64,000 nt of DNA from Arenicola marina (Eukaryota; Annelida; Polychaeta; Arenicolidae), in the NCBI GenBank assembly GCA_964019135.1, contig OZ025249.1:30517759-30581758 (forward strand), read 5' to 3'. The notes below the pieces were generated by a model. The model had not been told where the DNA came from. It did no database searches and was given only the letters and a program-made list of their open reading frames with translations. This document shows, in pieces, positions 20,039-64,000 of the stretch. Made by a program: the position numbers and the translations under genes. Positions within the stretch are counted from its first letter, which is position 1; each line of letters opens with the position of its first letter.

Positions 20039-20094
20039 ATGTACGCCAAGGGTAAAGGATCTACGGTACCTTCAGACGCTCAAGCAAGGGAAAA
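20039..20094 (+). CDS. SSBP2: SSBP coding exon 1
   Basis: Start codon and residues 1-18 plus two bases of Lys19, followed by donor GTAAGT. Confidence 0.95.
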
Positions 20095-23000
20095 GTAAGT
20101 ATAAGATCTTTGCAAAATATTCATGGTATAATCTCTTGTAAAATGATGGTCACAAATTTACAAATGCCGCTAGAATTTGTGCCTGTTTCGATTTGCTCCT
20201 ACAAAATCTCCACCTGTGCTGTGGATGCCCATCTTCCTGCATGCTTTATAGTGGCTGTTCCGGTTATAGAACACACCCACGTGGGGAAACCCCCTACTAT
20301 GAAGTCTATTCTGAGGATTAACAAACTGATTTTGCTGCGTGTTTAGGGTACAATTGAATGCAGAATAAAGTAACTAACGTTGCTTGAGTTAATATGCCAT
20401 TGCTGCGTCCTGCAATACAAGTTGTTTGCCATAAAAAAAACATATTTGGCATAGTCTGCCATATGTGCCCATGTTGAACGACACCGGTCTGACCAACTGC
20501 AGATGTGTGTTGTTACTATTTGTTTACTATAGTATAAAACGCTGATGCTTTTGTTTTCAGATTAGCCTTGTACGTCTACGAATATTTATTACATTGTGGG
20601 GCTCAAAAAAGTGCACAGACATTTCTATCGGAGGTAAGTTTTTAATGCAGTGTCACTTGCAATACATATAAATTTGCTATTTGACATCTGTCATTTTTCT
20701 GGATTGTCCAGTTTCAGGGTTTTATTTATAACAATTTATAGTTGTACCAATGAGATTTACTATGGATCTGCACAAACTACTATGGTTCTACACAAACTCC
20801 TAACATCTACTTGTCCTCCAGGACAAGGACTTTCAATTTGACTTGTCCCACATACCTAATATTTACTTGTTCCCCTCAAGAAAACATTGTCACATCAAAG
20901 TATTTATGCCATAGCAGAAATAATATCTAATTGACCAATACATATGTAAGGTAAATATCTTACAATCAAGTAATTTTTAGCACTAAAATTCATGGAGAAT
21001 GACCTGTTCAAAAAGCACCACCCTCCCATTTATTTGGAAAATGTTGCATTTTTTTCTGGGCAAGCACTTGTTCTGTTGTACAAATACAGAGATGTGTTTA
21101 CTTATCAGACAAAATCACTTGTCCCGGACTAGCAGGTCAGCATTAATAATGAGCCCTGACTATACATGCAGAAACATATCCTTCATATGGTTGGCCTGTT
21201 ATGTCTTTGTCCTGCTCAACATCCCTCACCACAATGTTAAAAACATTGTATACATCGCAGTTCAAGTAGTCTAGAAGTTATCAGTCCATCTAAGTTTAGT
21301 TACTAACCTGCCATTCCCTTATTTTGAATATGAGCTTATATCAAAACCTAAATATCAATATTATCCTTCAGCACTCTAGTCAGAATACATGGTGCTTGCT
21401 AGATAGTTTCACACCATATACCTGTATATAAAATGGGGTTATTGTACATTTGATACAATTTCTTCACAAAAAGAAATCTATATCATCACATCTACTTCTT
21501 AAAGTTAATTACATGGTTACATATAGTGCATAGAAAATTTGTAGTAACCTCTGCAATATATTTGAAACTTACAGTAAGAATCCTGGTTTGACTGCAAGGG
21601 ATATGATTGCATTAATGGGAAGTGGGATGCTGTCATATTTGCTTAGATGATATGGCAAGGTTATAGTCATTAAGTAAGAACTGTTTGCTTTATTTGTAGA
21701 GCTTACTAAAGGCTTATCCTTGGTAAGCTGATAATGTAGCTCAATATTCATAGCTGGGCCTATGTGTACGCTGTGAAATCACATCGTAGAAATTTATATT
21801 TGTCATGCTTATACCAATCACAGAAGTACAGTAGAATCTTGTTTGTAGAATCTTACTTATCATTTATATGGCATATACATCAAGAACAAAATCTAGTAAC
21901 TGTGCAACATTTTAGACTTTTTAGAGAAAGTAGAGTACCAGTATATAAGAGTTGAAGTCTTCCTTTGATAAGTTCAAGTACATTATGTAGATTTCTCAAT
22001 CTGAATAATTTATATTTGTAGTTGAATTACTCCACTGTTGCATATATATTTGTAGTAAATATGTCTTGTTTTTCAACTTTCAGATACGATGGGAAAAAAA
22101 CATAACATTAGGAGAGCCTCCTGGGTTCCTTCACTCCTGGTGGTGGTGAGTAGACTTATCGGTCTTTGTCTGTACATATTACATATGTTTTGATGTATGT
22201 CATCCATCTTGGATGGTCAGTCAAGTCAGGGTTTCTTTGGTGACTTCAGTGTGTGACCTCAATGCACTGGCTAAGTCATCTAATGCATTCATCTTGGGCT
22301 TGAGGTTTTTGACAGGTTGGTTGTTGGTTGGTTGTCTATTCAGGACGCTTTAACCACTTTGGGTCATATCGCGTCAATGGGACAAGGAAGGGAGAGTGGA
22401 GCCATGTTCCTGGGGTAACACCCTACTCTTTACGAAGAAGGCCATGGTATCTTTATCCTGCAACGGCACAGACATGGCCACAGCGGGGCGCGAACCACCG
22501 ATCCACGTGCCATTAGGCTCTCAGGTGACCAGAACATTCAATGCAAGCGCTCTAGCCCACTGAGCTATCGGGCCGGCCCCGTTTTTGACAGGTATTAAAA
22601 ACCAAACGGGTGAGTCGCTATTGGGAACAACTGGTGATTTAAGTCTGGTATAAGCCTGTTATATTGCATCCGAAGTATGTTCCAAAATATCTGTAGGAAA
22701 CATTATGGTCCGATAAAACCTGTGAAAGCAGTTTTGTTCAAAGGGAAGTCATTTATTTGCTTGCTACTAATAGATGGATTGTTTTCTTCAGTGAGGGAAA
22801 ACAGTCAAAATTAACTAACACTGGGAGAAACTATGATGAAATTCTTTGAGCTCCTCCAGACTGACCATCATACCAGGTGTTTCTGGCCTCCCTGTGAGAT
22901 AGGTCTAGTGAGATATTGCTCTTCCAGACAAACCATCATGAAATCTAGTGTGCGAATGGTTGTGCCGAGGGGAAGTGTCAATGTCCTGTTACAAAAAGAG

Positions 23001-26000
23001 GAGAATGAAGCTACTGTACCCTTGACATATCTTCATTGGAACAACTGGTTTCATTATCCCTTATTCTCAAACAATGCTTATAGTGAATTGACACGCCTGG
23101 TTTAAGTTGCTCAGAGTGACATTGTTGTAGCACATGCAGAGCTGTGTAAATAATTCTGCAAATGATGCTTCTACAACGATGTCAATTATTGCAAATAGTT
23201 CATCTACATTGATGTGGAATTTGTTTGGTCATCGAGGGGGACGATTATTGAGGTGGTCGTCTTAGCGCCGAGCAGCTCTTCCGAGTAAAGTCTGAACCCT
23301 TATTAAAATGAGATTCCTGCTCTACAGGTACAACACCTGCATGCGCGCCAAAGCTCTCGTCAGCCATGTGGCCTAAATAAGGTCGATACCCGTAAATATT
23401 GTGGTCATCGGGATAACCTCGTAGCCATGGAAGCCTCGTAGGCGTTACTGCTTTGTCCTGTCAGAGCTCAATGTGTGTGTGTGTGTCTTCAGTAGGGACA
23501 TGCGTTGTCAGAGTCTAGCGCCATTAAATATGCCATAAACATACCGTAACATATTTGATTGCTAACAAGGTCACTTCGGATTTTGCTGACAATGCTACCT
23601 TTCGGAGACAGGTAGCTGGAAGGCAGCGCGAATTGCTACCTCGTTGGATTGTTTATATAGGGTTCTTGGTATGTGGCTGAGAAATCGTCGAATGTCTTAT
23701 TTATTAGCTTACAGAAATGTAACATGCATGACAGTATTGGTAGGCTTGCTTCCACATTTCCACATTTCTGTCCAGATATATTTATATATATATATATATG
23801 CGTTATGTGATGAACGCCCACAAACGTTTGGGAATTGGTCGGGTTTATGCATATGTGCATGGCTCGGCCGTCTTTGGTTTTGACCACTGATATATCTTAA
23901 CCACCTGTCTATTTGTTTACCCCGGGGTGTCTTTCCTTGGTTACCGTATGCCTTGTCGTATGACACTATAATTTTTTACTTCTAAGCACACAGTATGTTA
24001 TCTATAACGAGCATAACTTTACCTATTCCTCGGTATACATATGGGGTTACCATATATTGCGCAGATTGAACTATAATCTGGGAAATTATAGTTACTATGT
24101 ATCATCCAGTCCACGGCTGCATGGCCATCGGGTGGTGAGCTTGAGACTAACGGATCAGCCGGGTGCCATCCGCGGTGACGCTCGGAAGCATCTGGTGGGT
24201 GGCATCACGGTTGGTTCGCCGCATTGTCCCAGGAGGCTCCGAGGTCCGGTGGACCTGGCCCATGGGCGCACAGAGGGGGACGTAAAACACGCAAGTCATT
24301 CGGGAGGTTTATACATGTTGGATAACACCGGACGACAGGAATTGATGAACCATGCGATGAAAACTGTATTGAAGCGATGAAGAAATGTTTCGTTGATGGC
24401 TGTGATCGTGTGACCACCGTACTTCGCCAGTGTAATTTTCTCTAAGAACAAGATGCTGACGATGGCTCGGTGGTTGGCGCTTTCAGCGTGGTCGACTTGG
24501 ATTGGTCAGACCAGTCATCGTGACGCCGGTTGAGGGTTCGCGCCCTACCGTGCGAATGTATTTGTTTTTGCTAGGATGCCGTGAGTCCCTGTTTTGTTAA
24601 AATAATTGCGCGTCTTTTTATAAAAAAAAAGAGGCCACTTGTGCATATGATGGTTAAACTATGTCAATAAAACTGCAACAATGAAACGAAAAATGGTGAA
24701 TCGTGCCCCGAGATGAAGATGTGAGGGCGCGAACCCACGACCTGTTGATCTGCAGCTCAGCCTGCTTGCCATGTAATCTCTTCCGGTGAATCTCTTCCGG
24801 TCATATCTTCGCTAACCCATATAGCCATACACGTCAAAATGTCCCAATCCAACAAGAACTGTCCAGACCTATTGTTTAGACATTGTTCGAGGTTGTAGCG
24901 TAGGTTGTGGTCGTATTAAAGTCCCGATGGAGGTTGTCTCCAGCCATTCCCAGGGGGCATCACGTCCAGTAGGCGCGTTCGTGTCTGGTCGATTAAGATC
25001 GTGCGCCGCTCAGCAGGTCAGCCCAACAGCAGGGGTGTAGGTGCGAGCCCCATCGGTGCAAATGTCTTACGTTTATGTAGGCTGCAGGTAGCATTGCTTT
25101 CGTAACACAATATGTGGGGGTATACTCGAAGGCGTGCTTCACTTCTTATCTTAAAGGTAATGAGAAAGGAAACGTAAATGTAGTTGCCGCTCCTGCACTA
25201 ACATTCATCACGGTGGCAGCGGAGGAGACTGGCTTCAGTTATAGTTGCCGCTCCTGCACCGCCATTCACCACGGTGACAGCGAAGGAGATTGGCTCCAGC
25301 TATAGTTGCGGGGTCGGCGCGATAGCTCAGTAGGCTAGAGCACTCGCATTGCGTGCTCTGACCAACTGAGAGCCTAATGGCACGTGGATCGGTGGTTCGA
25401 GCCCTGCTGTGGCCTTTTTGTATGGTCGCAGGATAAAGATCCCATGTTTTTCTTCGTAAAGAGTAGGGGGTTACTCCCGTGACATGGCTCCACTCTCCCT
25501 TCTTTCTCCCATTGACGCGATATGACCAAAAGTAGTTAAAGCGTCCTGAATAGCCAACCAACCAACCAGCTATAGTTGCCGCTCCTGCACCGCCATTCAT
25601 CACGGTGACAACGGAGATGATTGGCTCCAGCTATGGTTGCCGCTCCTGCACCGCCTCGCGTCACGGTGGCAGCGGAGGAGACTGGCTCCAGCTATAGATG
25701 TCGCTCCTGCACCGCCATTCATCACGGTGGCGGCGGAGGAGATTGGCTCCAGCTATAGTTGCAGCTTCTGCATCGCCATTTATCACGATGACAGCAGAGA
25801 TGATTGGCCCCAGCTATGGTTGCCGCTCCTGCACCGCCTCTCGTCACGGTGATAGCGGAGGATACTGGCTCCAGCTATAGTTGCCGCTCCTGCACCGCCA
25901 TTCATCACGGAGGCAGCGGAGGAGATTGGCTCCAGCTGTAGTTGCCGTTCCTGCACCGCCACTCGTCACGGTGACAGCGGAGGAGACTGGCTCCAGCTAT

Positions 26001-29000
26001 AGTTGCCGCTCCTGCGCCGCCATTCATCACGGTGACAGCGGAGGAGACTGGCTCCAGCTATAGTTGCCGCTCCTGCACCGCCACTCGTCACGGTGACAGC
26101 GGAGGAGACTGGCTCCAGCTAAAGTTGCCGCTCCTGCACCGCCAGTCATCACGGTGACAGCGGAGGAGACTGGTTCCAGCTATAATTGCCGCTCCTGCAC
26201 CGCCACTCGTCACGGTGACAGCGGAGGAGACTGGCTCCAGCTATAGTTGCCGCTCCTGCACCGCCACTCGTCACGGTGACAGCGGAGGAGATTGGCTCCA
26301 GCTATAGTTGCCGCTCCTGTACCGCCATTCATCACGGAGGCAGCGGAGGAGATTGGCTCCAGCTGTAGTTGCCGTTCCTGCACCGCCACTCGTCACGGTG
26401 ACAGCGGAGGAGACTGGCTCCAGCTATAGTTGCCGCTCCTGCACCGCCATTCATCACGGTGACAGCGGAGGAGACTGGCTCCAGCTATAGTTGCCGCTCC
26501 TGCACCGCCACTCGTCACGGTGACAGCGGAGGAGACTGGCTCCAGCTAAAGTTGCCGCTCCTGCACCGCCAGTCATCACGGTGACAGCGGAGGAGACTGG
26601 TTCCAGCTATAATTGCCGCTCCTGCACCGCCACTCGTCACGGTGACAGCGGAGGAGACTGGCTCCAGCTATAGTTGCCGCTCCTGCACCGCCACTCGTCA
26701 CGGTGACAGCGGAGGAGATTGGCTCCAGCTATAGTTGCCGCTCCTGTACCGCCATTCATCACGGTGACAGCGGAGGAGACTGGCTCCAGCTATAGTTGCC
26801 GCTCCTGCACCGCCACTCGTCACGGTGACAGCGGAGGAGACTGGCTCCAGCTAAAGTTGCCGCTCCTGCACCGCCAGTCATCACGGTGACAGCGGAGGAG
26901 ACTGGTTCCAGCTATAATTGCCGCTCCTGCACCGCCACTCGTCACGGTGACAGCGGAGGAGACTGGCTCCAGCTATAGTTGCCGCTCCTGCACCGCCATT
27001 CATCACGGTGACAGCGGAGGAGACTGGCTCCAGCTATAGTTGCCGCTCCTGCACCGCCACTCGTCACGGTGACAGCGGAGGAGACTGGTTCCAGCTATAA
27101 TTGCCGCTCCTGCACCGCCACTCGTCACGGTGATAGCGGAGGAGACTGGGTTCAGCTATAGTTGCCGCTCGTGCACCGCCACTCGTCACTGTGACAGCGG
27201 AGAAGACTGGTTCCAGCTATAATTGCCGCTCCTGCACCGCCACTCGTCACGGTGACAGCGGAGGAGACTGGCTCCAGCTATAGTTGCCGCTCCTGCACCG
27301 CCACTCGTCACGGTGACAGCGGAGGAGATTGGCTCCAGCTATAGTTGCCGCTCCTGTACCGCCATTCATCACGGTGACAGCGGAGGAGACTGGCTCCAGC
27401 TATAGTTGCCGCTCCTGCACCGCCACTCGTCACGGTGACAGCGGAGGAGACTGGCTCCAGCTAAAGTTGCCGCTCCTGCACCGCCAGTCATCACGGTGAC
27501 AGCGGAGGAGACTGGTTCCAGCTATAATTGCCGCTCCTGCACCGCCACTCGTCACGGTGACAGCGGAGGAGACTGGCTCCAGCTATAGTTGCCGCTCCTG
27601 CACCGCCATTCATCACGGTGACAGCGGAGGAGACTGGCTCCAGCTTTAGTTGCCGCTCCTGCACCGCCACTCGTCACGGTGACAGCGGAGGAGATTGGCT
27701 CCAGCTATAGTTGCCGCTCCTGCACCGCCACTCGTCACGGTGACAGCGGAGGAGACTGGTTCCAGCTATAATTGCCGCTCCTGCACCGCCACTCGTCACG
27801 GTGATAGCGGAGGAGACTGGGTTCAGCTATAGTTGCCGCTCGTGCACCGCCACTCGTCACTGTGACAGCGGAGAAGACTGGTTCCAGCTATAATTGCCGC
27901 TCCTGCACCGCCACTCGTCACGGTGACAGCGGAGGAGACTGGCTCCAGCTATAGTTGCCGCTCCTGCACCGCCATTCACATTGGTGACAGCGGAGGAGAC
28001 TGATTCCAGCTATATTTACCGCTCCTGCACCGCCATTCACAATGGTGACAGCAGCGGAGACTTGTTCGAGCTATAGTTGCCTCTCTTGCGCCGCCAGAAT
28101 TCTTGCCAGTCTAATTGCAGCTACAGTCTGCGATGTGGCACAGCCACGCGCCACACCAGGGGTTGACGAAGACAGATGTCTCCTGTCATACTGGGTTGGA
28201 TGAACCGGTGTTCACTACACCATGTGTTTCCCGTATGCTTCAATGGAACCGGCCAACATCTAGCCACATTGTCCTAACTTATGTATGAAATAAACTATAG
28301 GCGTCAGGAAACGCACCACTTTGATACCTCCCCTTCATTCCTCTCTCCCTCTCACTCCGCCCCCTGCACCGGTTAGTGGATCTTTTGATATATATCGTAA
28401 TGCTACATTGTTAATATGCAGTTGTGGATTGCAAGCATTTCGAATATTAATATTTTCGACTTCTATTAAGACCAGTAGTTGACGGCTACGTATAATACAT
28501 AGAAGTAGCAGACACATCGAGTATATGTCACACATCACTATGTCGGCACCATAGGAGGACAGATGCGATATGCGTTTTGGATGAGTATAATTTGCGCATA
28601 ATTTCAATGTGTGCTGAGATAGACCATGGACAAAACTGAGCGTCAATTCAGGGGATCCGGTGTGCGGCCTGGGTTAGGAGACGCTCCTGTGGATGTTTGT
28701 CACCACTCGTCTCTCTGTGTCCTGAAAATCAGTGGAGACAACGGTTTAACTTTTCTACTGTACGCGGATGTTTCCTACAGGAATGTACGCATGCCCAGGT
28801 CACGTTGCGCGTTTGAATAACTAACAGCGAAACTAGCGGCGATAACGAGGATACACTGCACGGGTTATGAAACCAGTGTAAACTAGGTGTGTTGAGTATA
28901 GCCGATATGATAACCTAAGAGTGAACGGTAATTGAACTGGTATTGCAGCCTAAGCTTCAGGAGTCGTATTCATACACAACACATACCTTACGCACGAATC

Positions 29001-32000
29001 GCGCATTTTCGTCGTAGCCTCGTTGTGGTGGTGCTCATGATCAAGATATCATATGCAATATCGTTTTTAGCACTTTCTTATTTCCGAAACTTCTTGGATG
29101 AATCCTGTTCTATTTTGAACCAATACATCGCTCGACAAATGTTTCACTTAACGCCAAGTGTATTGGCGTGGCCTATGTGTCTTATGAATGCGGCCCCTGT
29201 AGTGTTGTGGAATGAGGCCGAATTTTAAAGAAGGCTTAGTGAAGTGGTGGAACAACATCAATTCGGCGGCTTGCCGTAGCCTGCATTGTGGTATGAGGGT
29301 CTATTCCGCATGCGCCTCTTCCAGTTCATACCATGGCGTACGGTCTGATCTTGCCCAGGTTATACTTTGGCATATAAAGTATGTCGTATCTGTCCCACAC
29401 AGCGGTCATGGGAATTTGGTGGGCGGGAGGTAGCATGTTACCAGTCCCTTCATCCATCCACCACTATGGTCAGGAGTGATATGACGCAAATTATGATCGC
29501 AATCTGGTCATGCTTGAAATGAATATCGTCTTTTAAGTACTAGTTAAAGAACGAGTTAAATCGTTGGAATAAAATAAAATTAGTTATAATTTGATTGGGA
29601 TTTTAGCATCGTGTCGTTCAGTATTTCAACAACGCGCTCTAATGTTCACGATGAACGACTGGCTAAGTAAAGAACTATTCATACCACGAAAGCATTTTTT
29701 TGGAGGCATTTGTATAAATAATGAACATTAAAGACAGAAGCGTGACGTCATAGACATTTTAATGCTGAAGCAACATCCTTGCAATTATATGTCAGGGTGA
29801 CGAGAGCGTGTCTCGGTGGGCGATAAGAAGGAGAATGAACTTATCTGGTTTGCTTTTTGTTTCCTGGTTACCCGATAGGTAAGATGAGTAACAGGCATCA
29901 ATAGAAGGCTTTGATTGGTTCATTGGGATATATTTATTCCTACTTATGTCTCATTTCTGTCTGTAGTGTTTCAGTTAAGTTCTAGGCGATGCGTGATCTT
30001 GTTAAAGGCGATGCCATCAGCTGTCTTTGTCTCCCTGTGGTCACGTGGTCTTGTTCATCACTCCGCCATCAGGCGTCTTTTTCTCCCTGCGGCCACGTGG
30101 TCTTGTTTCTCGATTCGCCGTCATGCGGCTTTCTCTCCCTGTTGTCACGTTGTCTTGTTCCTTGCTACGAATTCAGGGGTCTTTCTCTCCCTGTGACCAC
30201 GTGGTCTTGTTCCTCGCTACGAAATCAGGCGTCTTTCTGTCCCTGCGGCCACGTGGTCTTGTTTCTTGCTGAGAAATCAGGCGCCATCGTCTCCCTGTGG
30301 TCACGTGGTCTTGTTCCTCACTCCGCCATCATGCGGCTTTGTCTCCCTGTGGCCACGTGGTCTTGTTTCTCGATTCGCCGTCATGCGGCTTTCTCTCCCT
30401 GTTGTCACGTTGTCTTGTTTCTTGCTACGAAATCAGGCGTCTTTCTCTCCCTGCGGCCACGTGGTCTTGTTTCTTGCTGAGAAATCAGGCGCCATTGTCT
30501 CCCTGTGGTCACATGGTCTTGTTCCTCACTCCGTCATCATGCGGCTTTGTCTTCCTGTGGCCACGTGGTGTTGCTCCTCGCTACGAAATCAGGCGTCTTC
30601 CTCTCTGTGGTCACGTGGTCTTGTTCCTCACCCCACCATCATGCGCCTTTCTCTCCCTGTGGCCACGTGGTCTTGTTCCTCACTACGCCACCTGGCGTCT
30701 TTCTCTCCCTGTGGCCACATGGTCTTGTTCCTCGCTACGAAATCAGGCGTCTTTCTCTCCCTGTGGCCACGTGTTCTTGTTCCTCACTACGCCACGCGGC
30801 GTCTCTCTCTCCCTGTGACCACGTGGTCTTGTTAAAGGCGATGCCATCAGCTGTCGTTGTCTCCCTGTGGTTACGTGGTCTTGTTCACCACTCCGCCATC
30901 ATGCGGCTTTGTCTCCCTGTGGCCACCTGGTCTTGTTGCTCGATTCGCCGTCATGCGGCTTTCTCTCCCTGTTGTCACGTGGTCTTGTTTCTCGCTACGA
31001 AATCAGGCGTCTTTCTCTCCCTGCGGCCACGTGGTCTTGTTTCTTTCTGAGAAATCAGGCGCCTTTGTCTCCCTGTGGTCACGTGGTCTTGTTCCTCACT
31101 CCGCCATCATGCGGCTTTCTCTCCCTGTGGCCACGTGGTCTTGTTCCTCGCTACAAAATCAGGCGTCTTCCTCTCTCTGTGGTCACGTGATCTTGTTCCT
31201 CACCCCACCATCATGCGCCTTTCTCTCCCTGTGGCCACGTGGTCTTGTTCCTTACTACGCCACGCGGCGTCTTTCTCTCCCTGTGGCCGCGTGGTCTTGT
31301 TCCTCGCTACGAAATGAGGCGTCTCTCTCTCCCTGTGGCCACGTGGTCTTGTACCTCGCTACGAAATCAGGCGTCTTTCTCTCCCTGTGGCCACGGGGTC
31401 TTGTTTTTCGCTACGAAATCAGGCGTCTTTCTCTCCTAGTGGCCACGTGGTCTTGTTCCTCGCTACGAAATCAGGCGTCTTTCTCTCCCTGTGGCCACGG
31501 GGTTTTGTTTTTCGCTACGAAATCAGGCGTCTTTCTCTCCCTGTGGCCACGTGGTCTTGTTCTTCGCTACGAAATCAGGCATCTTTCTCTCCCTGTGGCC
31601 ACGTGGTCTTGTTTCTCGCTACGAAATCAGGCGTCTTTCTCTCCCTATGGCCACGTGGTCTTGTTCCTCGCTACGAAATGAGGCGTCTTTCTCTCCCTGT
31701 GGCCACGTGGTCTTGTTCCTCGCTACGAAATCAAGCGTCTTTTTCTCCCTGTGGCCACGTGGCCTTGTTCCTCGCTACGAAATCAGGCGTCTTTCTCTTC
31801 CTGTGGCCACGTGGTCTTGTTCCTCGCTACGAAATCAGGCGTCTTTCTCTCCCTGTGGCCACGTGGTCTTGTTCCTCACTCCGCCATCAGGCGTCTTTCT
31901 CTCCCTGTGGCCACGTGGTCTTGTTTCTCGCTACGGAATTAGGCGTCTTTCTCTTCCTGTGGCCACGTGTTCGTGTTCCTCACTACGAAATGAGGCGTCT

Positions 32001-39188: not shown

Positions 39189-39220
<32 letters not shown>

Positions 39221-48400: not shown

Positions 48401-49880
48401 TTTGGATGACGTGGTTGACAACGTTCACACCATGATCTTGAATCGTTATATACTTAGTCGCTCTTGGTCAGCCACTGGAGAGAAATAATAATCACGCGAC
48501 GACCTTCGGTGACATTCACATGATGTGGTCAGACAGTATCTACTGGCTGGCCACTCAATGTTCTCCGGGTATCTATGGACAGCTGAGACGAGCATCAAGC
48601 CGATCGCAATAGCATGGTCATTGCTGAACATGTGACTTTGGAATTTACATAAGGGGGGAAGCTTGAATAGATGTCATTAAGCGGCATATATAGATGACAT
48701 CTTGCCGTTTTAGAATGGATCTATTCAAGTACGAGTGTTCAGCATGAAAGTGTTTGACCCTCTCTTTGAAGTCTGGCTTTGATACTGCTGCTGTTCATGA
48801 AGAGTTTGGCCTGACCATATGGATTTCGTTAGTATCATCGGTTCTATTGTGTCAAATTGGATGAGCCGATGGCAATCGATTTTTGCGTTTTACCACTCGA
48901 ATGAACATGAAGGCTCCGCATACAACGTGTGTCCACCTTTTCCATATGTTTTTTTCTTTACGAGTTACTCGACTGAACACATTGATTGTTAATGTGAATT
49001 CTTTAGAAATATATGCGTGGTCATCGTCAAATTTTGTTAAAGGGCGACACTAGCCCCATTTTTAGAAATTTGCAAGACGTAGTAAGCAAGACAATTGCGT
49101 TTATGGCATATTATATGCTGGGGTTATGCAATGAAAAACTGAATGATTGACTTCCTTGCAATATATTTCTAAACGTTTCTCGTGTTAAAAAAAGTGACGT
49201 AACCAACCATTAACACATAGTCTCCAGTAGTATATTGAAAACAAAAACGAAAGAGTATTAACACAAATATGTTAAGAAATGGGCATGGAAGGACAAGAAA
49301 TATCTTGACTCTCAGCCGTAAAAGGTGGACGTTAGTAACTGGTTGGCACGAGGAGGAGCATGGTAGTCTCATGTACGTTCAGTTAACCACAATAGATAAT
49401 AGAACCAATCCTTATATAATTCCATCATAATGTTTGGCGCTAAACCAAGTCATGCTTAGTGCTATATATGAGCGTTTTATCTCTACAGTTATGTGAGAAA
49501 ATTGTTTATTTTTGTTACTACTGGTCTGGATCCAAAAATCGTCGTCTATTTTATGAACTGCACTGAATGGGTAAGTCAGTTAGTGCACGGTTACGAAACT
49601 ATGCGAGCGATATGAGGTTGTGCATCACAGCGCGACCGGCCTACTTCCTCCCAATGGTTCCTCGCAATGAGGTATGGCTTAGTCCGATGCACATACGTAT
49701 AAATGTTGCATCATTGCGGTTATGGCGCCGTGGGTGTCGCGTAGGGTGTCAGAAATTGGATTGCTTGCAAGACATGGTAGATATCTTTCTTCGCCTTTTA
49801 TTTTGACCATCAAGCGGTTGTTTGGTGACATAGGTACTTAAATTGCGGTTTATTGGGGACTGCTGGTTACAAATGCACTT
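48401..49880. other. Intron sequence without recognised features
   Basis: AT-rich, single-copy looking. No exon or RNA gene recognised. Confidence 0.5.
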
Positions 49881-49889
49881 AATTGGGTT

Positions 49890-51065
49890 TTACTGGGTGG
49901 GACCTGTTGGATACAAGTATTCCAGTAATGAGGATTGCTAGACACAATTGTATTTCAGTTGGGTGGTGATGGGGACTGTTTGGACAATTGTACTTCAGTT
50001 GGGTGGTAATGGGGACAGTTTGGACAATTGTACTTCAGTTGGATGGTAATGGGGACTGTTTGGATAATTGTACTTTAGTTGGGTGGTAATGGGGACTGTT
50101 TGGATAATTGTACTTCAGTTGGGTGGTAATGGGGACTGTTTGGATAATTGTACTTCAGTTGGATGGTAATGGGGACTGTTTAGATAATTGTACTTCAGTT
50201 GAGTGGTAAGGGGGACTGTTTGGACACAATTGTACTTCAGTTGAGTGGTAATGGGGACTGTTTGGACACAATTGTACTTTAGTTGGGTGGTAATGGGGAC
50301 CGTTCGGATAATTGTACTTCAGTTGGGTGGTAATGGGGATTGTTTGGATAATTGTACTTCAGTTGGATGGTAATGGGGACTGTTTGGACACAATTGTACT
50401 TTAGTTGGGTGGTAATGGGGATTGTTTGGAGATTGTACTTCAGTTGGATGGTAATGGGGACTGTTTGGACACAATTGTACTTCAGTTGGGTGGTAATGGG
50501 GACTGTTTGGATAATTGTACTTCAGTTGGGTGGTAATGGGGACTGTTTGGATAATTGTACTTCAGTTGGATGGTAATGGGGACTGTTTGGACACAATTGT
50601 ACTTTAGTTGGGTGGTAATGGGGATTGTTTGGAGAATTGTACTTTAGTTGGGTGGTAATGGGGAATGTTTGGACACAATTGTACTTCAGTTGGGTGGTAA
50701 CGAGGATTGTTTGGACAATTGTACTTTAGTTGGGTGGTAATGAGGACTGTTTGGACACAATTGTACTTCAGTTGGATGGTAATGGGGACTGTTTGGACAC
50801 AATTGTACTTCAGTTGGGTGGTAATGGGGACTGTTTGGACACAATTGTACTTCAGTTGGGTGGTAATGGGGACTGTTTGGACACAATTGTACTTCAATTG
50901 GGTGGTAATGGGGACTGTTTGGACACAATTGTACTTCAGTTGGGTGGTAACGAGGATTGTTTGGACAATTGTACTTTAGTTGGGTGGTAATGGGGACTGT
51001 TTGGACACAATTGTACTTTAGTTGGGTGGTAATGGGACTGTTTGGAGACAACTGTACTTCAGTTG
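49890..51065. repeat. 40-42-bp minisatellite array, about 28 copies
   Basis: The unit runs TTGTACTTCAGTTGGGTGGT, AATGGGGACTGTTTGGA, then TAA, CAA or CACAA, giving 40- and 42-bp forms. Units are joined through ACAATTGT or ATAATTGT. Copies become less regular toward the left end. Confidence 0.95.
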
Positions 51066-54000
51066 GTGATAAGGATATATAGATCGTCTACCTGCTGTCC
51101 AGTTGGTTCGATAACTCGTCTACCTGTTGTCCAGTTGGTCCGATATATCGTCTACCTGATGTCCAGTTGGTCCGATACATCGTCTACCTCATGTCCAGTC
51201 GGTCCAATATATCGTCTATCTGTTGTCCAGTTGGTCCGATATATCGTCTACCTGCTGTCCAGTTGGTCCGATAACTCGTCTACCTGTTGTCCAGTTGGTC
51301 CGATATATCGTCTACCCGTTGTCCAGTTGGTCCGATATATCGTCTACCCGTTGTCCAGTTGGTCCGATATTTCGTCTACCTGTTGTCCAGTTGGTCCGAT
51401 ATAACGTCTACCTGGTGTCCAGTTGGTCCGATATGTCGTCTACCTGCTGTCCAGTTGGTCCGATATATGGTCTACCTGCTGTCCAGTTGGTCCGATATAT
51501 CGTTTACCTGTTGTCCAGTTGGTCCGATATCTCGTCTACCTCTGGTCCAGTTGGTCCGATATTTCGTCTACCTGTTGTCCAGTTGGTCCGATATATCGTC
51601 TACCTGTTGTCCAGTTGGTCCGATATGTCGTCTACCTGTTGTCCTGTTGGTCCGATATATCGTCTACCTGCTGTCCAGTTGGTCCGATATATTGTCTACC
51701 TGATGTCCAGTTGGTCCGATATATCGTCTACCTGCTGTCCAGTTGGCCTGATATATCGTCTACCTGATGTCCATGTTGGTCCGATATATCGTCCACCTGA
51801 TGTCCTGTTGGTCCGATATATCGTCTACCTGATGTCCATGTTGGTCCGATATATCGTCTACCTGCTGTCCAGTTGGTCCGATAACTCGTCTACCTGTTGT
51901 CCAGTTGGTCCGACATATCGTCTACCTGCTGTCCAGTTGGCCTGATATATCGTCTACCTGATGTCCATGTTGGTCCGATATATCGTCTACCTGATGTCCT
52001 GTTGGTCCGATATATCGTCTACCTGATGTCCATGTTGGTCCGATATATCGTCTACCTGCTGTCCAGTTGGTCCGATAACTCGTCTACCTGTTGTCCAGTT
52101 GGTCCGACATATCGTCTACCTGCTGTCCAGTTGGCCTGATATATCGTCTACCTGATGTCCATGTTGGTCCGATATATCGTCTACCTGATGTCCTGTTGGT
52201 CCGATATATCGTCTACCTGATGTCCATGTTGGTCCGATATATCGTCTACCTGCTGTCCAGTTGGTCCGATATGTCGTCTACCTGCTGTCCAGTTGGTCCG
52301 ATATGTCGTCTACCTGCTGTCCAGTTGGTCCGATATGTCGTCTACCTGTTGTCCAGTTGGTCCGATATGTCGTCTACCTGTTGTCCAGTTGGTCCGACAT
52401 ATCGTCTACCTGCTGTCCAGTTGGCCTGATATATCGTCTACCTGATGTCCATGTTGGTCCGATATGTCGTCTACCTGCTGTCTAGTTGGCATGATATATC
52501 GTCTACCTGATGTCCATGTTGGTCCGATATATCGTCTACCTGATGTCCTGTTGGTCCGATATGTCGTCTACCTGCTGTCCAGTTGGTCCGATATGTCGTC
52601 TACCTGCTGTCCAGTTGGTCCGATATATCGTCTACCTGATGTCCATGTTGGTCCGATATGTCGTCTACCTGATGTCCTGTTGGTCCGATTTGTCGTCTAC
52701 CTGTTGTGCAGTTGGTCCGATATGTCGTCTACCTGTTGTGCAGTTGGTCCGATATGTCGTCTACCTGCTGTCCAGTTGGTCCGATATATCGTCTACCTGA
52801 TGTCCATGTTGGTCCGATATGTCGTCTACCTGATGTCCATGTTGGTCCGATATGTCGTCTACCTGATGTCCTGTTGGTCCGATATGTCGTCTACCTGTTG
52901 TTCAGTTGGTCTGATATGTCGTTAACCTGCTGTCCAGTTGGTCCGATATATCGTCTACCTGTTGTCCAGTTGGTCCGATATGTCGTCTACCTGTTGTGCA
53001 GTTGGTCCGATATGTCGTCTACCTGCTGTCCAGTTGGTCCGATATATCGTCTACCTGTTGTCCAGTTGGTCCGATATGTCGTCTACCTGCTGTCCAGTTG
53101 GTCCGATATGTCGTCTACCTGCTGTCCAGTTGGTCCGATATATCGTCTACCTGCTGTCCAGTTGGTCCGATATGTCGTCTACCTGTTGTGCAGTTGGTCC
53201 GATATGTCGTCTACCTGCTGTCCAGTTGGTCCGATATATCGTCTACCTGTTGTCCAGTTGGTCCGATATGTCGTCTACCTGCTGTCCAGTTGGTCCGATA
53301 TGTCGTCTACCTGCTGTCCAGTTGGTCCGATATATCGTCTACCTGTTGTCCAGTTGGTCCGATATGTCGTCTACCTGCTGTCCAGTTGGTCCGATATGTC
53401 GTCTACCTGCTGTCCAGTTGGTCCGATATATCGTCTACCTGATGTCCATGTTGGTCCGATATGTCGTCTACCTGATGTCCTGTTGGTCCGATATGTCGTC
53501 TACCTGTTGTCCAGTTGGTCCGATATGTCGTCTACCTGTTGTGCAGTTGGTCCGATATGTCGTCTACCTGCTGTCCAGTTGGTCCGATATATCGTCTACC
53601 TGATGTCCATGTTGGTCCGATATGTCGTCTACCTGATGTCCTGTTGGTCCGATATGTCGTCTACCTGTTGTGCAGTTGGTCCGATATGTCGTCTACCTGT
53701 TGTGCAGTTGGTCCGATATGTCGTCTACCTGCTGTCCAGTTGGTCCGATATATCGTCTACCTGTTGTCCAGTTGGTCCGATATGTCGTCTACCTGCTGTC
53801 CAGTTGGTCCGATATATCGTCTACCTGTTGTCCAGTTGGTCCGATATGTCGTCTACCTGTTGTGCAGTTGGTCCGATATGTCGTCTACCTGCTGTCCAGT
53901 TGGTCCGATATATCGTCTACCTGTTGTCCAGTTGGTCCGATATGTCGTCTACCTGCTGTCCAGTTGGTCCGATATGTCGTCTACCTGCTGTCCAGTTGGT

Positions 54001-54540
54001 CCGATATATCGTCTACCTGCTGTCCAGTTGGTCCGATATGTCGTCTACCTGTTGTGCAGTTGGTCCGATATGTCGTCTACCTGCTGTCCAGTTGGTCCGA
54101 TATATCGTCTACCTGTTGTCCAGTTGGTCCGATATGTCGTCTACCTGCTGTCCAGTTGGTCCGATATGTCGTCTACCTGCTGTCCAGTTGGTCCGATATA
54201 TCGTCTACCTGTTGTCCAGTTGGTCCGATATGTCGTCTACCTGCTGTCCAGTTGGTCCGATATGTCGTCTACCTGCTGTCCAGTTGGTCCGATATATCGT
54301 CTACCTGCTGTCCAGTTGGTCCGATATGTCGTCTACCTGCTGTCCAGTTGGTCCGATATATCGTCTACCTGCTGTCCAGTTGGTCCGATATGTCGTCTAC
54401 CTGCTGTCTAGTTGGTCCGATATATCGTCTACCTGATGTCCAGTCGATCCAATATATCGTCTACCTACTGTCCGGTTGGTCCGATATATCTTTTGTCTGA
54501 TGTCCAGTTGGTCCGATATATCGCCTACCCGTTGTCCACG
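51066..54540. repeat. 32-bp minisatellite array, about 108 copies
   Basis: The unit runs GTCCAGTTGGTCCGATATAT, CGTCTACCTGCT, 32 bp. Two main forms alternate, with CGATATATCG (a perfect palindrome) or CGATATGTCG. GATGTCCATGTTGG and GTGCAGTTGG variants mark higher-order blocks. Three units make 96 bp, so every forward frame encodes the same 32-residue repeat; the longest open stretch is 576 codons. The left end is more varied, including ATAACTCG and CGTTGTCC forms. Confidence 0.97.
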
Positions 54541-54767
54541 TAGGTAATCTGAAGATTTCTTTCTTTCTGACAGTTGCTTACATTATGATTTACCATCGGA
54601 TTTCCACCTTACATTTATTGACGTTTTGATAAAAACTAACCCTTGACTTGTCCATGATTATTGCCCCAGTTTGAACACAACTGGTTACTTTTCTGTTTAG
54701 CCGGAAGAGAGGACGGACGCTGCGGAACGTGAGAATTCCGCTTTATTGCTCTATACAGACTCGCACG

Positions 54768-55130
54768 GTGGCCCTGGAAGTACCCCATGTGTTTCACATT
54801 GTGGCCCTGGAAGTACCCCATGTGTTTCACATTGTGGCCCTGGAAGTACCCCACGTGTTTCACATTGTGGCCCTGGAAGTACCCCATGTGTTTCACATTG
54901 TGGCCCTGGAAGTACCCCATGTGTTTCACATTGTGGCCCTGGAAGTACCCCATGTGTTTTACATGGTGGCCCTGGAAGTACCCCATGTGTTTCACATTGT
55001 GGCCCTGGAAGTACCCCATGTGTTCCACATTGTGGCCCTGGAAGTACCCCATGTGTTTCACATTTTGGCCCTGGAAGTACCCCATGTGTTTTCCATTGTG
55101 GCCCTGGAAGTACCCCATGTGTTTCACATG
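54768..55130. repeat. 33-bp minisatellite array, 11 copies
   Basis: The unit runs GGCCCTGGAAGTACCCCATG, TGTTTCACATTGT. Unit length is 3 x 11 and the unit has no stop in most frames, so several frames on both strands stay open. The minus strand would give an 11-residue repeat (HNVKHMGYFQG). Confidence 0.96.
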
Positions 55131-55383
55131 ATAGGCTAAGACACCCACCAATCCGATACTCGCATTGTTGTGACAGGGATTGTGTGTAAGAGTTCTTTAT
55201 TCGTTTGTCGCCGTGGGTTGGAGTGCTTGGTCGCGGTCGCACTGAAGTTTGTACGAGTCGAATACGGCTGACAAACAGTTCACTATACCGACCAATGGCA
55301 AGTGTCTTTCTCTACAGTTGGTTGTTGTTTTTCTCTTGACAAATTAAGATAGATTATAAAAGAATCGCAATAATATCCCTGGT

Positions 55384-55415
<32 letters not shown>

Positions 55416-57750
55416 GGGGTTTGAGAAAAACATTGTCCTTCGTTTTTTGAAGCGAGGAATTATTTATTGTTAGAAATATCTCTCTTTTTGAATGTTATGC
55501 GGTAATATTGTCTCCGCGCGTAGGTAGGGACACGGCGACCGGCTTCCAGGTTTGGTGCGGGTTTTAACACGAGCGTCTGCTTGGAAGGCTGCAGACAATA
55601 TTGCAACCGGGGGTAGAGTGGGTGGGTGGGTGGGTGGCTGGGTCACGTTGAAGAAGCGGGTGGTGGGGGTTGGTTGGGGGGTGGGGTGGGGCGGGTCTCC
55701 ATAAATGTACATGTATTTATGTCAGCAGCCGCTGAGCTCGGCTATGGGATAGCACTGCATGGGTTCGGCATGGTGGTGATAAGGTATGAGGCAGGCAAGG
55801 GGTTAGAGTGGTGGGGGGGGGGGAGTAGAGGCGTGTACGGATTGGGGGGGGGGTTAGATGGGGGTGGGGGTGGGCGGATGAGTGTGGGAGGTGGAGGAGA
55901 GGGGGGTATGGTGTGCCTTGCAGTCGGAGGTTCTACGAAGCTAAGCCACTAGAGGTAAAGACAAGCGTGGGTTGGTGGTGATGGTGAGGGGAAGGGGCGG
56001 TGGGACGGAGGTTGGTGGTTGGGGCAGGGCATGGGTGGGGGCGGGGGACGTCGGGTTGCGGCGATAGCGATGGCGATGGTAAGGGGGGTGAGGTAAGGTG
56101 GACTGGAGGGTGATCACCGACGCAGGTAGTTATAGAACTACCATAGAGAGAATGAAGGACGGAACGAAGGAGAGATACGGTAACGATACAGTGCAAATTT
56201 CATTGTCTTCAGGCACCGCTGAAATTATTTTACCGGCAGAAAAATAAAATCTCGAAAATAACGACAGCTTTAGCGCCGTGTCCCTCTATGTATTCGAGAT
56301 CATTTGCGGTGATGTAAGATACGACATTGTGAGGTGGTTACGGTTGGGAGATGACATCGCATTGTCTCCTCCCTATCGCCGGTTCACTGTACTCACCTCG
56401 GTCGGCATGCCAAGTCGGAACCCGCCTCTTCGCGCTGCACCAGCGGGGAGGATGTGTCTCGGTGAGATATGGGGCGCGGAGAGATGCGATTTGGTCTTCA
56501 TCGTGCGCCAAACGTAAAACATTAGATATCTAATACGCACACAAAAGAGAGCAATCTTTTGTATTCTTAATTACATAGGCAGTGTTTGTGTTTATTATCC
56601 TAATGTGTAATATGTCTCTAAAACAAGGGCAACTGAACATGTTCTCTCGTATAAGCCTTTATTTTCGATTAAACGGTTACTATAGTTTACACATTTTAAC
56701 GTGGTAGTTCAGTATAATTGGCATGATTATTTATCCCGGAGTATTTAACTCCATTTACCCCCATATTTGATTTTAAACCGTTAGTATTATCAAGAATGGC
56801 TGCGTCTTACAATATTATTCTCTCTAAATGTGCGAAAATGGGATTTGCTTGACGTTACACCATTTGTTGCCCGTGAGGCCTTCTGAAATGGACGCGTTTC
56901 TTGTGTCTGGTTGTGTGATGGGTACACTTGGCGGCCGCCGAAGTGTCTACGGCACTGCTCGGCCCCTGTGACGGGCGCAGTGTTGTGGCGGCTGACTGGT
57001 GGCGCGTCGTAGGCTTTGTTGACTGTGCTGGACTTTTCTCTGGACCGGTCCATTATACTGTGGCCATAAGGGTGGCCAGGTTGTTCCTCACCGGTTTCAC
57101 TGCGTTGGCTATGCTTGGAGATAGAGAGAGACAAGGCATGGGGCGGGGAGGGGCTGTAAGTGAACAAATTGCGGGTGATAAAAAAATGGAAAAAGAAAAC
57201 AGGCGTACATATAGTCGTGTATAGTCGCTCTGCCAATGCAGTAAACAGTATGCAATTCCCCGCTTTCCTTTAACCAAAAAAACTGCAGTCTGCCAGTTCT
57301 GAACTACACTGAATGTCTCGACGTGAATGTTGTATATAGATACATATGTCATACATACTTCATATAGTACGTACAATTGCAAAAAAATAAGTCGTTGTAC
57401 AGACAGAATTATTATTTAATATTTCGGTATCAAAGCGATGAATAAAAGTGCCTGACTAACAATGGCTTCCTACGTGCAAACATTCGCTGTAACCAAGGTA
57501 GCAGGCCTATTAAATATAATATAAGGGCTGTTTCCTATCAACAGCCAGGGTGGTCTTTGCCTTTCACGAAAACCAAGATTATGTGGTGTAATTCTAATAG
57601 ACCTACTTCAAAATGACTCTTATTATTTTCTTTAACCATTAATTATTAATCCGTCATATTAAACAATACAATAACGACATGTTAATCGTAATTCAATGTA
57701 TCTGCAACAATTGATTAGAGTGGAGATGAACGGTGTCTTCCGCCTGTGAG
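55131..57750. other. Intron sequence between the 33-bp and 16-bp arrays
   Basis: Includes a TA run at about 55388-55415, G-rich low-complexity stretches at about 55616-55700 and 55805-56110, and otherwise plain AT-rich sequence. No exon recognised. Confidence 0.55.
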
Positions 57751-57774
57751 GTTATATCGTGTCCGGGAGACCCC

Positions 57775-58650
57775 GCTAACATTCCACCCCGCTAACATTC
57801 CACCCCGCCAACGTTCCGCCCCGCCAACATTCCACCCCGCCAACCCTCCACCCTGCCAAACTTCCACCCAGCCAACCTTTCACCCCGCCAACCTTCCACG
57901 TCGCCAACCTTCCACCCCACCAACCTGCCACCCCGCCAAACTTCCAGCCCGCCAAACTTCCAGCCCGCCAACATTCCACCCCGCCAACATTCCACCCCCG
58001 CCAACCCTCCACCCCGCCAAACTTCCACCCAGCCAACCTTCCACCCCGCCAACCTTCCACCCCGCCAACCTTCCACCCCGCCAACCTTCCAGCCCGCCAA
58101 CCTTTCATCCCGCCAACTTCCACCCCGCCAACATTCCACCCCTCCAACCTTCCACCCCGCCAACCTTCCACCCCGCCAACCTTCAAGCCCGCCAACCTTT
58201 CATCCCGCCAACTTCCACCCCGCCAACATTCCACCCCGCCAACATTCCACCCCGCCAACATTCCACCCCCGCCAACCCTCCACCCCGCCAAACTTCCACC
58301 CAGCCAACCTTCCACCCCGCCAACCGTCCACCCCGCCAACCTTCCACCCCGCCAACCTTCCAGCCCGCCAACCTTTCATCCCGCCAACTTCCACCCCGCC
58401 AACATTCCACCCCTCCAACCTTCCACCCCGCCAACCTTCCACCCCGCCAACCTTCAAGCCCGCCAACCTTTCATCCCGCCAACTTCCACCCCGCCAACCT
58501 TCCACCCCGCCAACATTCCACCCCGCCAACATTCCACCCCGCCAACATTCCACCCCGCCAACATTCCACCCCCGCCAACCCTCCACCCCGCCAAACTTCC
58601 ACCCAGCCAACCTTCCACCCCGCCAACCTTCCATACCGCCAACATTGCAC
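57775..58650. repeat. 16-bp minisatellite array, about 54 copies
   Basis: The unit is close to AACATTCCACCCCGCC, with AACCTTCC, AAACTTCC and 15- or 17-bp forms. A longer block with ACCCCCGCCAACCCTCCACC occurs at about 57991, 58262 and 58565, i.e. every 271-303 bp, showing higher-order repetition. Confidence 0.95.
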
Positions 58651-58654
58651 CCCG

Positions 58655-61600
58655 CCCACCACGCCACACCACGCCACCCCACTCGACATCACTACGCCAC
58701 CCACCACGCCACCCCACTCGACATCACTAGGCCACCCACCATGCCACGCCCCCCCCCCCGACGCCACGACGCCACCCCACCCGACGCCGTTACCCTGCAC
58801 GACACCACCACGCCACCTTACAACGCCAGCCCACGCGACGCCACCACCCTACGACTCCACGCCACCCCCACCCGACTCCACCCCACCCCACGACGCCACG
58901 ACGCCACGACGCCGCGCCAACCGACGCCACGACACCATTCGACGCCGCTAGGCCACGACGTCACCACGCCACCCACCACGCCACCCCACTCGACGTCACT
59001 ATGCCACCCACCACCCCACCCCACTCGACGTCACTATGCCATCCACCACGCCACCCCACTCGACGTCACTACGCAACCCACCACACCACCCCACTCGACG
59101 TCACTATGCCGCCCACCACGCCACCCCACTCGACGTCACTATGCCGCCCACCACACCACCCCACTCGACGTCACTACGCAACCCACCACACCACCCCACT
59201 CGACGTCACTACGCCACCCACCACGCCACCCCACTCGACGTCACTGCCATCCACCATGCCACCCCACTAGACGTCACTATGCCGCCCACCACGCCACCCC
59301 ACTCGACGTCACTATGCCATTCACCACGCCACCCCAGTCGACGTCACTACGCCACCCACCACGCCACCCCACTAGACGTCACTATGCCGCCCACCACGCC
59401 ACCCCACTCGACGTCACTATGCCGCCCACCACGCCACCCCACTCGACGTCACTACGCCACCCACCACGCCACCCCACTCGACGTCACTATGCCGCCCACC
59501 ACGCCACCCCACTCGACGTCACTATGCCACCCACCACGCCACCCCACTCGACGTCACTGCCATCCACCATGCCACCCCACTAGACGTCACTATGCCGCCC
59601 ACCACGCCACCCCACTCGACGTCACTATGCCATTCACCACGCCACCCCAGTCGACGTCACTACGCCACCCACCACGCCACCCCACTAGACGTCACTATGC
59701 CGCCCACCACGCCACCCCACTCGACGTCACTATGCCGCCCACCACGCCACCCCACTCGACGTCACTACGCCACCCACCACGCCACCCCACTCGACGTCAC
59801 TATGCCGCCCACCACGCCACCCCACTCGACGTCACTATGCCACCCACCACGCCACCCCACTCGACGTCACTATGCCGCCCACCACGCCACCCCACTCGAC
59901 GTCACTATGCCACCCACCACGCCACCCCACTCGACGTCACTATGCCGCCCACCACGCCACCCCACTCGACGTCACTATGCCGCCCACCACGCCACCCCAC
60001 TCGACGTCACTGCCACCCACCACGCCACCCCACTCGACGTCACTATGCCGCCCACCACGCCACCCCACTCGACGTCACTATGCCATTCACCACGCCACCC
60101 CAGTCGACGTCACTACGCCACCCACCACGCCACCCCACTAGACGTCACTATGCCGCCCACCATGCCACCACACTCGACGTCACTATGCCGCCCACCACGC
60201 CACCCCACTCGACGTCACTATGCGCCCACCACACCACCCGACTCGACGTCACTACGCCACCCACCACGCCACCCCACTCGACGTCACTATGCCGCCCACC
60301 ACGCCACCCCACTCGACGTCACTATGCCACCCACCACGCCACCCCACTCGACGTCACTATGCCGCCCACCACGCCACCCCACTCGACGTCACTATGCCAC
60401 CCACCACGCCACCCCACTCGACGTCACTATGCCGCCCACCACGCCACCCCACTCGACGTCACTATGCCACCCACCACGCCACCCCACTCGACCTCACTAT
60501 GCCGCCCACCACGCCACCCCACTCCACGTCACTATGCCACCCACCACGCCACCCCACTCGACGTCACTATGTCGCCCACCACGCCACCCCACTCGACGTC
60601 ACTATGCCATTCACCCCGGCGACGTCACTACGCCACCCACCACACCACCCCACTCGACGTCACTATGCCATTCACCACGCCACCCCAGTCGACGTCACTA
60701 CGCCACCCACCACACCACCCCAGTCGACGTCACTATTCCACCCACCACACCACCCCACTTGACGTCACTATACTACCCACCACACCACGCCCCCCCCCCC
60801 CCGACGCCACGACGCCACCCCACCCGACGCCGTTACCCTGCACGACACCACCACGCCACCTTACAACGCCAGCCCACGCGACGCCACCACCCTACGACTC
60901 CACGCCACCCCCATCCGACTCCACCCCACCCCACGACGCCACGACGCCGCGCCTACCGACGCCACGACACCGCGCCTACCGACGCCACGACACCATTGGA
61001 CGCCGCTAGGCCACGACGTCACTACGCCACCCACCACGCCACCCCACTCGACGTCACTATGCCGCCCACCACGCCACCCCACTCGACGTCACTATGCCAT
61101 CCACCATGCCACCCCACTCGACGTCACTATGCCATCCACCACGCCACCCCACTCGACGTCACTATGCCATCCACCACCCCACGCCACGACGCCGCGCCAA
61201 CCGACGCCACGACACCATTCGACGCCGCTAGGCCACGACGTCACTACGCAACCCACCACGCCACCCCACTCGACGTCACTATGCCGCCCACCACGCCACC
61301 CCACTCGACGTCACTATGCCATCCACCATGCCACCCCACTAGACGTCACTATGCCGCCCACCACGCCACCCCACTCGACGTCACTATGCCATCCACCATG
61401 CCACCCCACTAGACGTCACTATGCCATTCACCACGCCACCCCAATCGACGTCACTACGCCACCCACCACGCCACCCCACTCGACGTCACTATGCCGCCCA
61501 CCATGCCACCCCACTCGACGTCACTATGCCACCCACCACGCCACCCCACTCGACGTCACTATGCCGCCCACCACGCCACCCCACTCGACGTCACTACGCC

Positions 61601-64000
61601 ACCCACCACGCCACCCCACTCGACGTCACTATGCCACCCACCACGCCACCCCACTCGACGTCACTATGCCGCCCACCACGCCACCCCACTCGACGTCACT
61701 ATGCCGCCCACCACGCCACCCCACTCGACGTCACTATGCCATTCACCACGCCACCCCAGTCGACGTCACTACGCCACCCACCACACCACCCCACTCGACG
61801 TCACTACGCAACCCACCACGCCACCCCACTCGACGTCACTATGCCGCCCACCACGCCACCCCACTCGACGTCACTATGCCGCCCATCACGCCACCCCACT
61901 CGACGTCACTATGCCGCCCACCACGCCACCCCACTAGACGTCACTATGCCGCCCACCACGCCACCCCACTCGACGTCACTATGCCATTCACCACGCCACC
62001 CCACTTGACGTCACTACGCAACCCACCACACCACCCCACTCGACGTCACTACGCCACCCACCACACCACCCCGCTCGACGTCACTACGCCACCCACCATG
62101 CCACCCCAATCGACGTCACTACGCCACCCACCACGCTACCCCACTCGACGTCACTATGCCATCTACCACGCCACCCCAATCGACGTCACTACGCAACCCA
62201 CCACACCACCCCACTCGACGTCACTACGCAACCCACCACACCACCCCACTCGACGTCACTACGCCACCCACCACGCCACCCCAGTCGACGTCACTATTCC
62301 ACCCACCACACCACCCCACTTGACGTCACTATGCTACCCACCACACCACGCGCCCCCTTCCCACCCCCGACGCCACGACGCCACCCCACCCGACGCCGTT
62401 ACCCTGCACGACACCACCACGCCACCTTACAACGCCAGCCCACGCGACGCCACCACCCTACGACTCCACCCTACCCCACGACGCCACGACGCCGCGCCAG
62501 CCGACGCCACGACGCCATTCGACGCCACTACGCCACGACGCCGCCACGCCACAACACCTCCCCACCCGACGCCACGACGCTGACGCCACCCCCGGCGCCA
62601 CGACGCCACCCGACGCAACGACGCCACCCGACTCCACGCCACGACGCTCACAAGGCAACCCCAACCGACGCCCCGCCACGCCACGCCGCTACGCCACCCC
62701 ACCTGACGCCACCCCACCCCACCCGAGGCCACCCCCGGCGCCCCCCCCCGGCGCCCCCCACCAGACGCCACTACGCCACGACGCCACGCCGCAACACCTC
62801 CCCAACCGACGCCACACCCCCGACGCCACTCCCGGCGCCACGACGCCACCCGACGCCACGACGCCACCTCACCCGACGCTACGACGCCACCTCACACGAC
62901 GCCGCGCCAACAGACGCCACGACGCCACTACGCCACGACGCTACTACCCTACGACGCCACCCCCGACGCCACCCCCGGCGCCACCCCACCCGACGCCACT
63001 ACGCCACGCCACAACACCTCTCCACCCGACGCCACACCCCCGACGCCACCCCCGGCGCCACCCCACCCGACCCCACCCCACCCCCCGACGCCACGACGCC
63101 ACCCCACCCGACGCCGTTACCCTGCACGACACCACCACGCCACCTTACAACGCCAGCCCACGCGACGCCACCACCCTACGACTCCACGCCACCCCCATCC
63201 GACTCCACCCCACCCCACGACGCCACGACGCCGCGCCTACCGACGCCACGACACCGCGCCTACCGACGCCACGACACCATTGGACGCCGCTAGGCCACGA
63301 CGTCACTACGCCACCCACCACGCCACCCCACTCGACGTCACTATGCCGCCCACCACGCCACCCCACTCGACGTCACTATGCCATCCACCATGCCACCCCA
63401 CTCGACGTCACTATGCCATCCACCACGCCACCCCACTCGACGTCACTATGCCATCCACCACCCCACGCCACGACGCCGCGCCAACCGACGCCACGACACC
63501 ATTCGACGCCGCTAGGCCACGACGTCACTACGCAACCCACCACGCCACCCCACTCGACGTCACTATGCCGCCCACCACGCCACCCCACTTGACGTCACTA
63601 TGCCATCCACCATGCAACCCCACTAGACGTCACTATGCCGCCCACCACGCCACCCTACTCGACGTCACTATGCCATCCACCATGCCACCCCACTAGACGT
63701 CACTATGCCATTCACCACGCCACCCCACTCGACGTCACTACGCCACCCACCACGCCACCCCACTCGACGTCACTATGCCGCCCACCATGCCACCCCACTC
63801 GACGTCACTATGCCACCCACCACGCCACCCCACTCGACGTCACTATGCCGCCCACCACGCCACCCCACTCGACGTCACTACGCCACCCACCACGCCACCC
63901 CACTCGACGTCACTATGCCACCCACCACGCCACCCCACTCGACGTCACTATGCCGCCCACCACGCCACCCCACTCGACGTCACTATGCCGCCCACCACGC
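58655..64000. repeat. 35-bp minisatellite array with GACGTCA cores, over 5.3 kb, runs off the right edge
   Basis: The unit runs ACCACGCCACCCCACTCGAC, GTCACTATGCCGCCC, 35 bp, with ACGCCACCC, ATGCCATTC and CAGTCGACGTC variants. The GACGTC core is kept in most units. Irregular blocks rich in CGACGCCAC interrupt it at about 58740-58985, 60786-61020, 61175-61250, 62345-63300 and 63460-63530. A segment of about 0.9 kb from 60812 recurs almost unchanged 2284 bp downstream, to the window end. The long forward open frames (up to 657 codons) follow from the C-rich unit and are not called as genes. Confidence 0.97.

Follow-up and report, generated by a model that had tools for sequence, protein, structure and literature searches.

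An SSBP/SSDP gene model in Arenicola marina and the minisatellite arrays of its large introns

The right two thirds of the window, by which we mean the whole stretch of 64,000 nucleotides of Arenicola marina DNA that was analysed, is rich in tandem arrays, and the earlier note attributed all of it to one SSBP (Ssdp) gene with giant introns. The locus raises the question of whether such a gene does run through the arrays, and whether the arrays are a peculiarity of this gene or of its genome. Vertebrate SSBP genes have large introns. We consider it very probable that the locus is an SSBP gene of 16 coding exons spread over 137.8 kb, with introns filled by local minisatellites at the usual density and carried as passengers that are spliced out. 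Positions above 64000 continue the window numbering along the same chromosome-sized contig (C2, 61.5 Mb), and the genome searched comprised 867 Mb in 762 contigs.

Exon chain and predicted protein

The four short exons of 56, 73, 62 and 85 nt proposed in the earlier note were recovered at exactly these sizes and positions, and when joined they gave 276 nt that form a single frame of 92 codons, with GT-AG introns. When the 92-aa peptide was compared with PDB sequences by phmmer, the best of four SSBP2/Ssdp structure sequences was SSBP2 (8hib_A, E 4.6e-58), with 86 of 92 aligned residues identical, and the Ssdp chain 6s9r_A gave 1e-52. Judged by sequence, the likeness of this LUFS peptide to SSBP2 is far beyond chance, and the assignment of the four exons to the LisH/LUFS domain holds. 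Searched by itself, the 92-aa peptide matched no Pfam family (E 0.001), and Pfam LisH alone scored 16.8 bits on the SSBP model, under its cut-off of 21.6.

Downstream of these four, twelve more exons were found, all in order and in phase and sharing one strand with the first four, which bears out the claim that one SSBP gene runs from 20039 past 64000. The earlier note had suggested looking for a continuation, with an Ala-rich exon 5 in the next tens of kb; since the chain does continue beyond exon 4, this test is favourable at the DNA level. Exon 5 is present 16.8 kb past the window, and it is Pro/Gly-rich, not Ala-rich. The chain is as follows.

20039-20094, + strand: exon 1, coding part (ATG), 56 nt
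20561-20633, + strand: exon 2, LisH part of the LUFS domain, 73 nt
22084-22145, + strand: exon 3, 62 nt
46693-46777, + strand: exon 4, where the LUFS domain ends, 85 nt
80784-80873, + strand: exon 5, by likeness to the SSBP tail
105477-105545, + strand: exon 6, by likeness to the SSBP tail
106512-106569, + strand: exon 7, by a search requiring splice signals and phase
147748-147833, + strand: exon 8, by likeness to the SSBP tail
148215-148294, + strand: exon 9, by a search requiring splice signals and phase
148639-148681, + strand: exon 10, by likeness to the SSBP tail
149563-149598, + strand: exon 11, by a search requiring splice signals and phase
150862-150919, + strand: exon 12, by likeness to the SSBP tail
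153682-153752, + strand: exon 13, by likeness to the SSBP tail
154178-154244, + strand: exon 14, by a search requiring splice signals and phase
156220-156356, + strand: exon 15, by likeness to the SSBP tail
157756-157872, + strand: exon 16, provisional last exon, with phase, acceptor and peptide judged by eye

The full chain of 16 coding exons contains 1188 nt (395 aa plus stop) and spans 137,834 bp. GT-AG borders were found at 15 of the 15 introns, those of exons 7, 9, 11, 14 and 16 not being independent evidence because the searches required splice signals and phase. Exon 16 is provisional because it was picked by eye among dozens of candidates and its peptide had no match among PDB sequences. 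Like SSBP2, SSBP3, SSBP4 and Drosophila Ssdp (PF04503), the model has the N-terminal LUFS domain, and its Pro/Gly/Met tail matches Pfam SSDP (166.6 bits for the 395-aa model against a cut-off of 27, best stretch residues 123-333). It differs from them in the lack of an Ala-rich exon 5, in a Pfam match that stops at residue 333 of 395, and in the usual C-terminal ending, which was sought downstream by motif and by similarity and was not found, the provisional last exon encoding a different peptide.

When the whole genome was searched in six frames with the 92 aa, three matches came back, namely exons 2, 3 and 4 of the present chain, and no second SSBP locus was found. The six-frame genome search with the Pfam SSDP family, whose controls were silent as well, and the genome search with the tail of human SSBP3 found nothing; short exons are below the sensitivity of these searches. 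On the extended locus, tblastn of the SSBP3 tail was swamped by Pro-rich array frames, and worked when the tail was cut into pieces.

SSDP is described, in the excerpted text of PMC6800368, as binding Chip/LDB and associating with itself. By analogy, the product of this gene most likely shares the role that SSDP has elsewhere, with self-association through LisH/LUFS and Chip/LDB as its partner in enhancer complexes, and its long Pro/Gly/Met tail is probably disordered.

Several other features were observed around the chain and in the assembly. An open frame at 19806-19924 (+) lies after a possible splice acceptor, and its stop codon, TAA, is 114 bases ahead of the SSBP ATG; it had no match in PDB sequences, and is possibly either the SSBP 5′ leader or the last exon of a gene upstream. 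Farther to the left, a 1404-aa open frame at 6849-11063 (-) belongs to a DBF4-like gene (DBF zinc finger, E 1e-13; BRCT match just under the cut-off), and an Rfam tRNA match at 5658-5748 (-) scored 57.1 bits over 91 bases, where ARAGORN reported none. A dense tandem cluster with homeobox matches, several of them with internal stop codons, lies at 21.61-21.83 Mb of contig C17. On the mitochondrial contig (C762), the COX1 frame has 13 internal TGA codons, and its neighbours, read by eye and presumably the genes named here, give the order nad3-nad2-cox1-cox2-atp8-cox3 on one strand, which is the annelid mitochondrial order. A lancelet origin, suggested by the minisatellites and the 19 large contigs, was set aside: a weak search, whose controls were silent as well, gave no GFP-family match, and the mitochondrial order points to an annelid.

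Tandem arrays in the introns and in the genome

Eight arrays of at least 300 bp, together with smaller ones, lie or begin in 20039-64000, and 8 of 8 fall within intron 3 or intron 4, where the earlier note had placed them. They consist of head-to-tail units of about 10-100 bp, as minisatellites do, and their best periods are 61, 52, 201 (C-rich), 82, 32, 33, 271 (16-bp unit) and 35. The two introns and the arrays in them are listed below.

22146-46692, + strand: intron 3, 24,547 bp, 45.6% tandem repeats
25566-28096: 61-bp array, 41.5 copies, preceded at 25181-25309 by a smaller block with the same unit
30013-37206: 52-bp array, 137.8 copies
39489-40030: C-rich irregular array, periods 7-201
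46778-80783 (window part 46778-64000), + strand: intron 4, 34,006 bp, 54.9% tandem repeats
49941-51066: 40/82-bp array
51079-54538: 32-bp array, 107.7 copies
54768-55129: 33-bp array, 11 copies
57770-58747: 16/271-bp C-rich array
58838-64000, on to 64633: 35-bp C-rich array

Introns 5 and 7, of 24,603 and 41,178 bp, have tandem-repeat shares of 21.7% and 21.1%. The skews of the arrays are mixed, and the idea of a strand bias, with C enriched on the sense strand, was therefore dropped. Two SINE-like copies, tRNA-derived by their look, flank intron 3 on the inside (22310-22600, - strand; 46395-46640, + strand), with a mean column identity of 81%.

The array load was counted on 2-kb chunks for tandem units of at least 10 bp, and the background sample consisted of 40 random places out of 80 drawn, each shortened to 2 kb; the draw covered the contigs up to C19 except C15 and C16. 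The load was 31.7% in the SSBP gene (69 chunks) against 28.6% at random (40 places; bootstrap 95% 19-39%; permutation 0.32), and the 106 kb after the gene carried more than the gene itself, 41.6% (53 chunks). The mononucleotide-shuffled control gave 0.0%. When the arrays were divided by unit length, the best-scoring period of 10-99 bp covered 29.0% of the gene and 19.0% of the random places (permutation 0.05), units of 1-9 bp covered 2.8% and 0.0% (0 of 20,000 permutations), and for units of at least 100 bp the order was reversed (4.1% and 11.2%); all these gene-versus-random tests overstate differences, because the chunks within one gene are neighbours and not independent. The sequence before the gene, window positions 1-20038, is nearly without tandem repeats (1.8%, 10 chunks), unlike the gene itself and the sequence that follows.

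The array load of the SSBP gene is not clearly different from the genome background, with the narrower measures somewhat higher. Since the rest of the genome carries arrays at a similar frequency, the striking part is the repeat-rich genome and not the SSBP gene. The earlier note had called at least eight distinct tandem families in one gene striking; the eight arrays are there, but at a load near the background, and the scale of the claim is corrected to a well-conserved SSBP gene whose introns mostly sample a repeat-rich genome.

Origin of the arrays and alternative readings

Two of the eight window arrays were searched for in the whole 867 Mb. Pieces of the 52-bp array gave 32 matches, all in the array itself, and pieces of the 61-bp array gave 11, in the array itself and in the small block just before it; this confinement does not prove rarity, because the search skips very common words. 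Neither array had copies at other places of the genome that would suggest a dispersed satellite or a transposon-borne family. When 62 unit consensuses were compared (E 1e-5), every match joined two arrays of this stretch that lie no more than about 22 kb apart, and the random places matched neither these arrays nor one another. Because the matches in both comparisons stay local, the arrays look locally born, which we infer from the sequences of the units. Farther along, a 57-bp array at 256260-261410 has frames that read as long Ser/Pro/Leu repeats, and its 57-bp unit appears again at 252147-252700.

In the reading that we prefer, a single SSBP/SSDP gene, the sole copy found in the genome, would run on the + strand from 20039 for 137.8 kb. 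Its introns 3, 4, 5 and 7 would have been filled by minisatellites that arose locally, by slippage or unequal exchange, to about the density usual for the genome. The arrays would be transcribed in the pre-mRNA as passengers and removed by normal splicing. A reading in which the chain is not one working gene, either because the scaffold is misjoined or because exons 1-4 end in another transcript, could appeal to two 200-N gaps, probably scaffold joins, at 76124-76323 (intron 4) and 113323-113522 (intron 7). We regard it as very improbable, since no N interrupts the window sequence that carries exons 1-4, the exons flanking both gaps agree in order, strand and phase and jointly score as a single SSDP protein, and the six-frame genome search found no second SSBP locus. 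It is just as improbable, in our estimate, that the arrays are functional parts of SSBP, such as enhancers, splicing or chromatin elements, retained by need. The higher density of introns 3 and 4 than of introns 5 and 7, and the excess of the gene over random places at periods of 10-99 bp and 1-9 bp, would fit such a role, but the total load is near the background and is exceeded after the gene, and the 52-bp and 61-bp arrays occur nowhere else; as these two are private, no shared element was seen.

The open frames of the arrays bear on a further reading, that they are translated repeat proteins. The segment 20039-64000 holds 106 stop-to-stop frames of at least 110 aa, 68 of them with half or more of their length in arrays, so the warning in the earlier note that an open-frame annotation would report dozens of false repeat proteins was fair. 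Fourteen frames reach at least 300 aa, each at least 57% within arrays, which would favour this reading; against it, several frames overlap in different registers of one array, and with periods such as 61, 52, 32, 35 and 16, none of them divisible by three, reading through any one array passes from one register to the next until all three have been used. Translation of these frames is accordingly given hardly any weight. No nested gene emerged either, as none of the 11 frames tested, from 38 intron frames mostly outside arrays, matched a Pfam family.

A load of private minisatellites is a real trap for open-frame gene finding, and a genome with such a locus-private load would be a good system for studying array birth. 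We would tentatively extend this, with a little less than even confidence, to the genome as a whole: about a quarter of the 867 Mb may consist of minisatellites that arise and grow locally, each with a private unit, and their birth and growth, rather than transposons, may be a main cause of intron and genome size.

Comparison with known minisatellite systems

Narrow literature searches found no report of such a minisatellite-rich genome, and the nearest systems are compared here as the excerpted texts of three reports describe them. Tandem minisatellites in the intron of an annelid gene are known from earthworm metallothionein genes, where they lie in the first intron and are reported to be conserved between two species (PMC12783039, in excerpt), whereas the two arrays searched here are private to their locus. 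Minisatellites within genes are also found in amphioxus, where the ‘mirage’ minisatellites span exon-intron borders and do not stop normal splicing (PMC3087553, in excerpt). At the present locus, in contrast, none of the 364 TRF rows touches any of the 16 SSBP exons, the nearest being 78 bases away, and the arrays of at least 300 bp keep at least 699 bp from them. At the level of the genome, another annelid, the earthworm Amynthas aspergillum, has been scanned with Tandem Repeats Finder, and its minisatellites amount to 2.65% (PMC12130307, in excerpt). With the same TRF settings, the 40 random 2-kb places of the present genome gave 18.0% (bootstrap 11-26%), a difference to be read with the reservation that the counting rules may otherwise differ.
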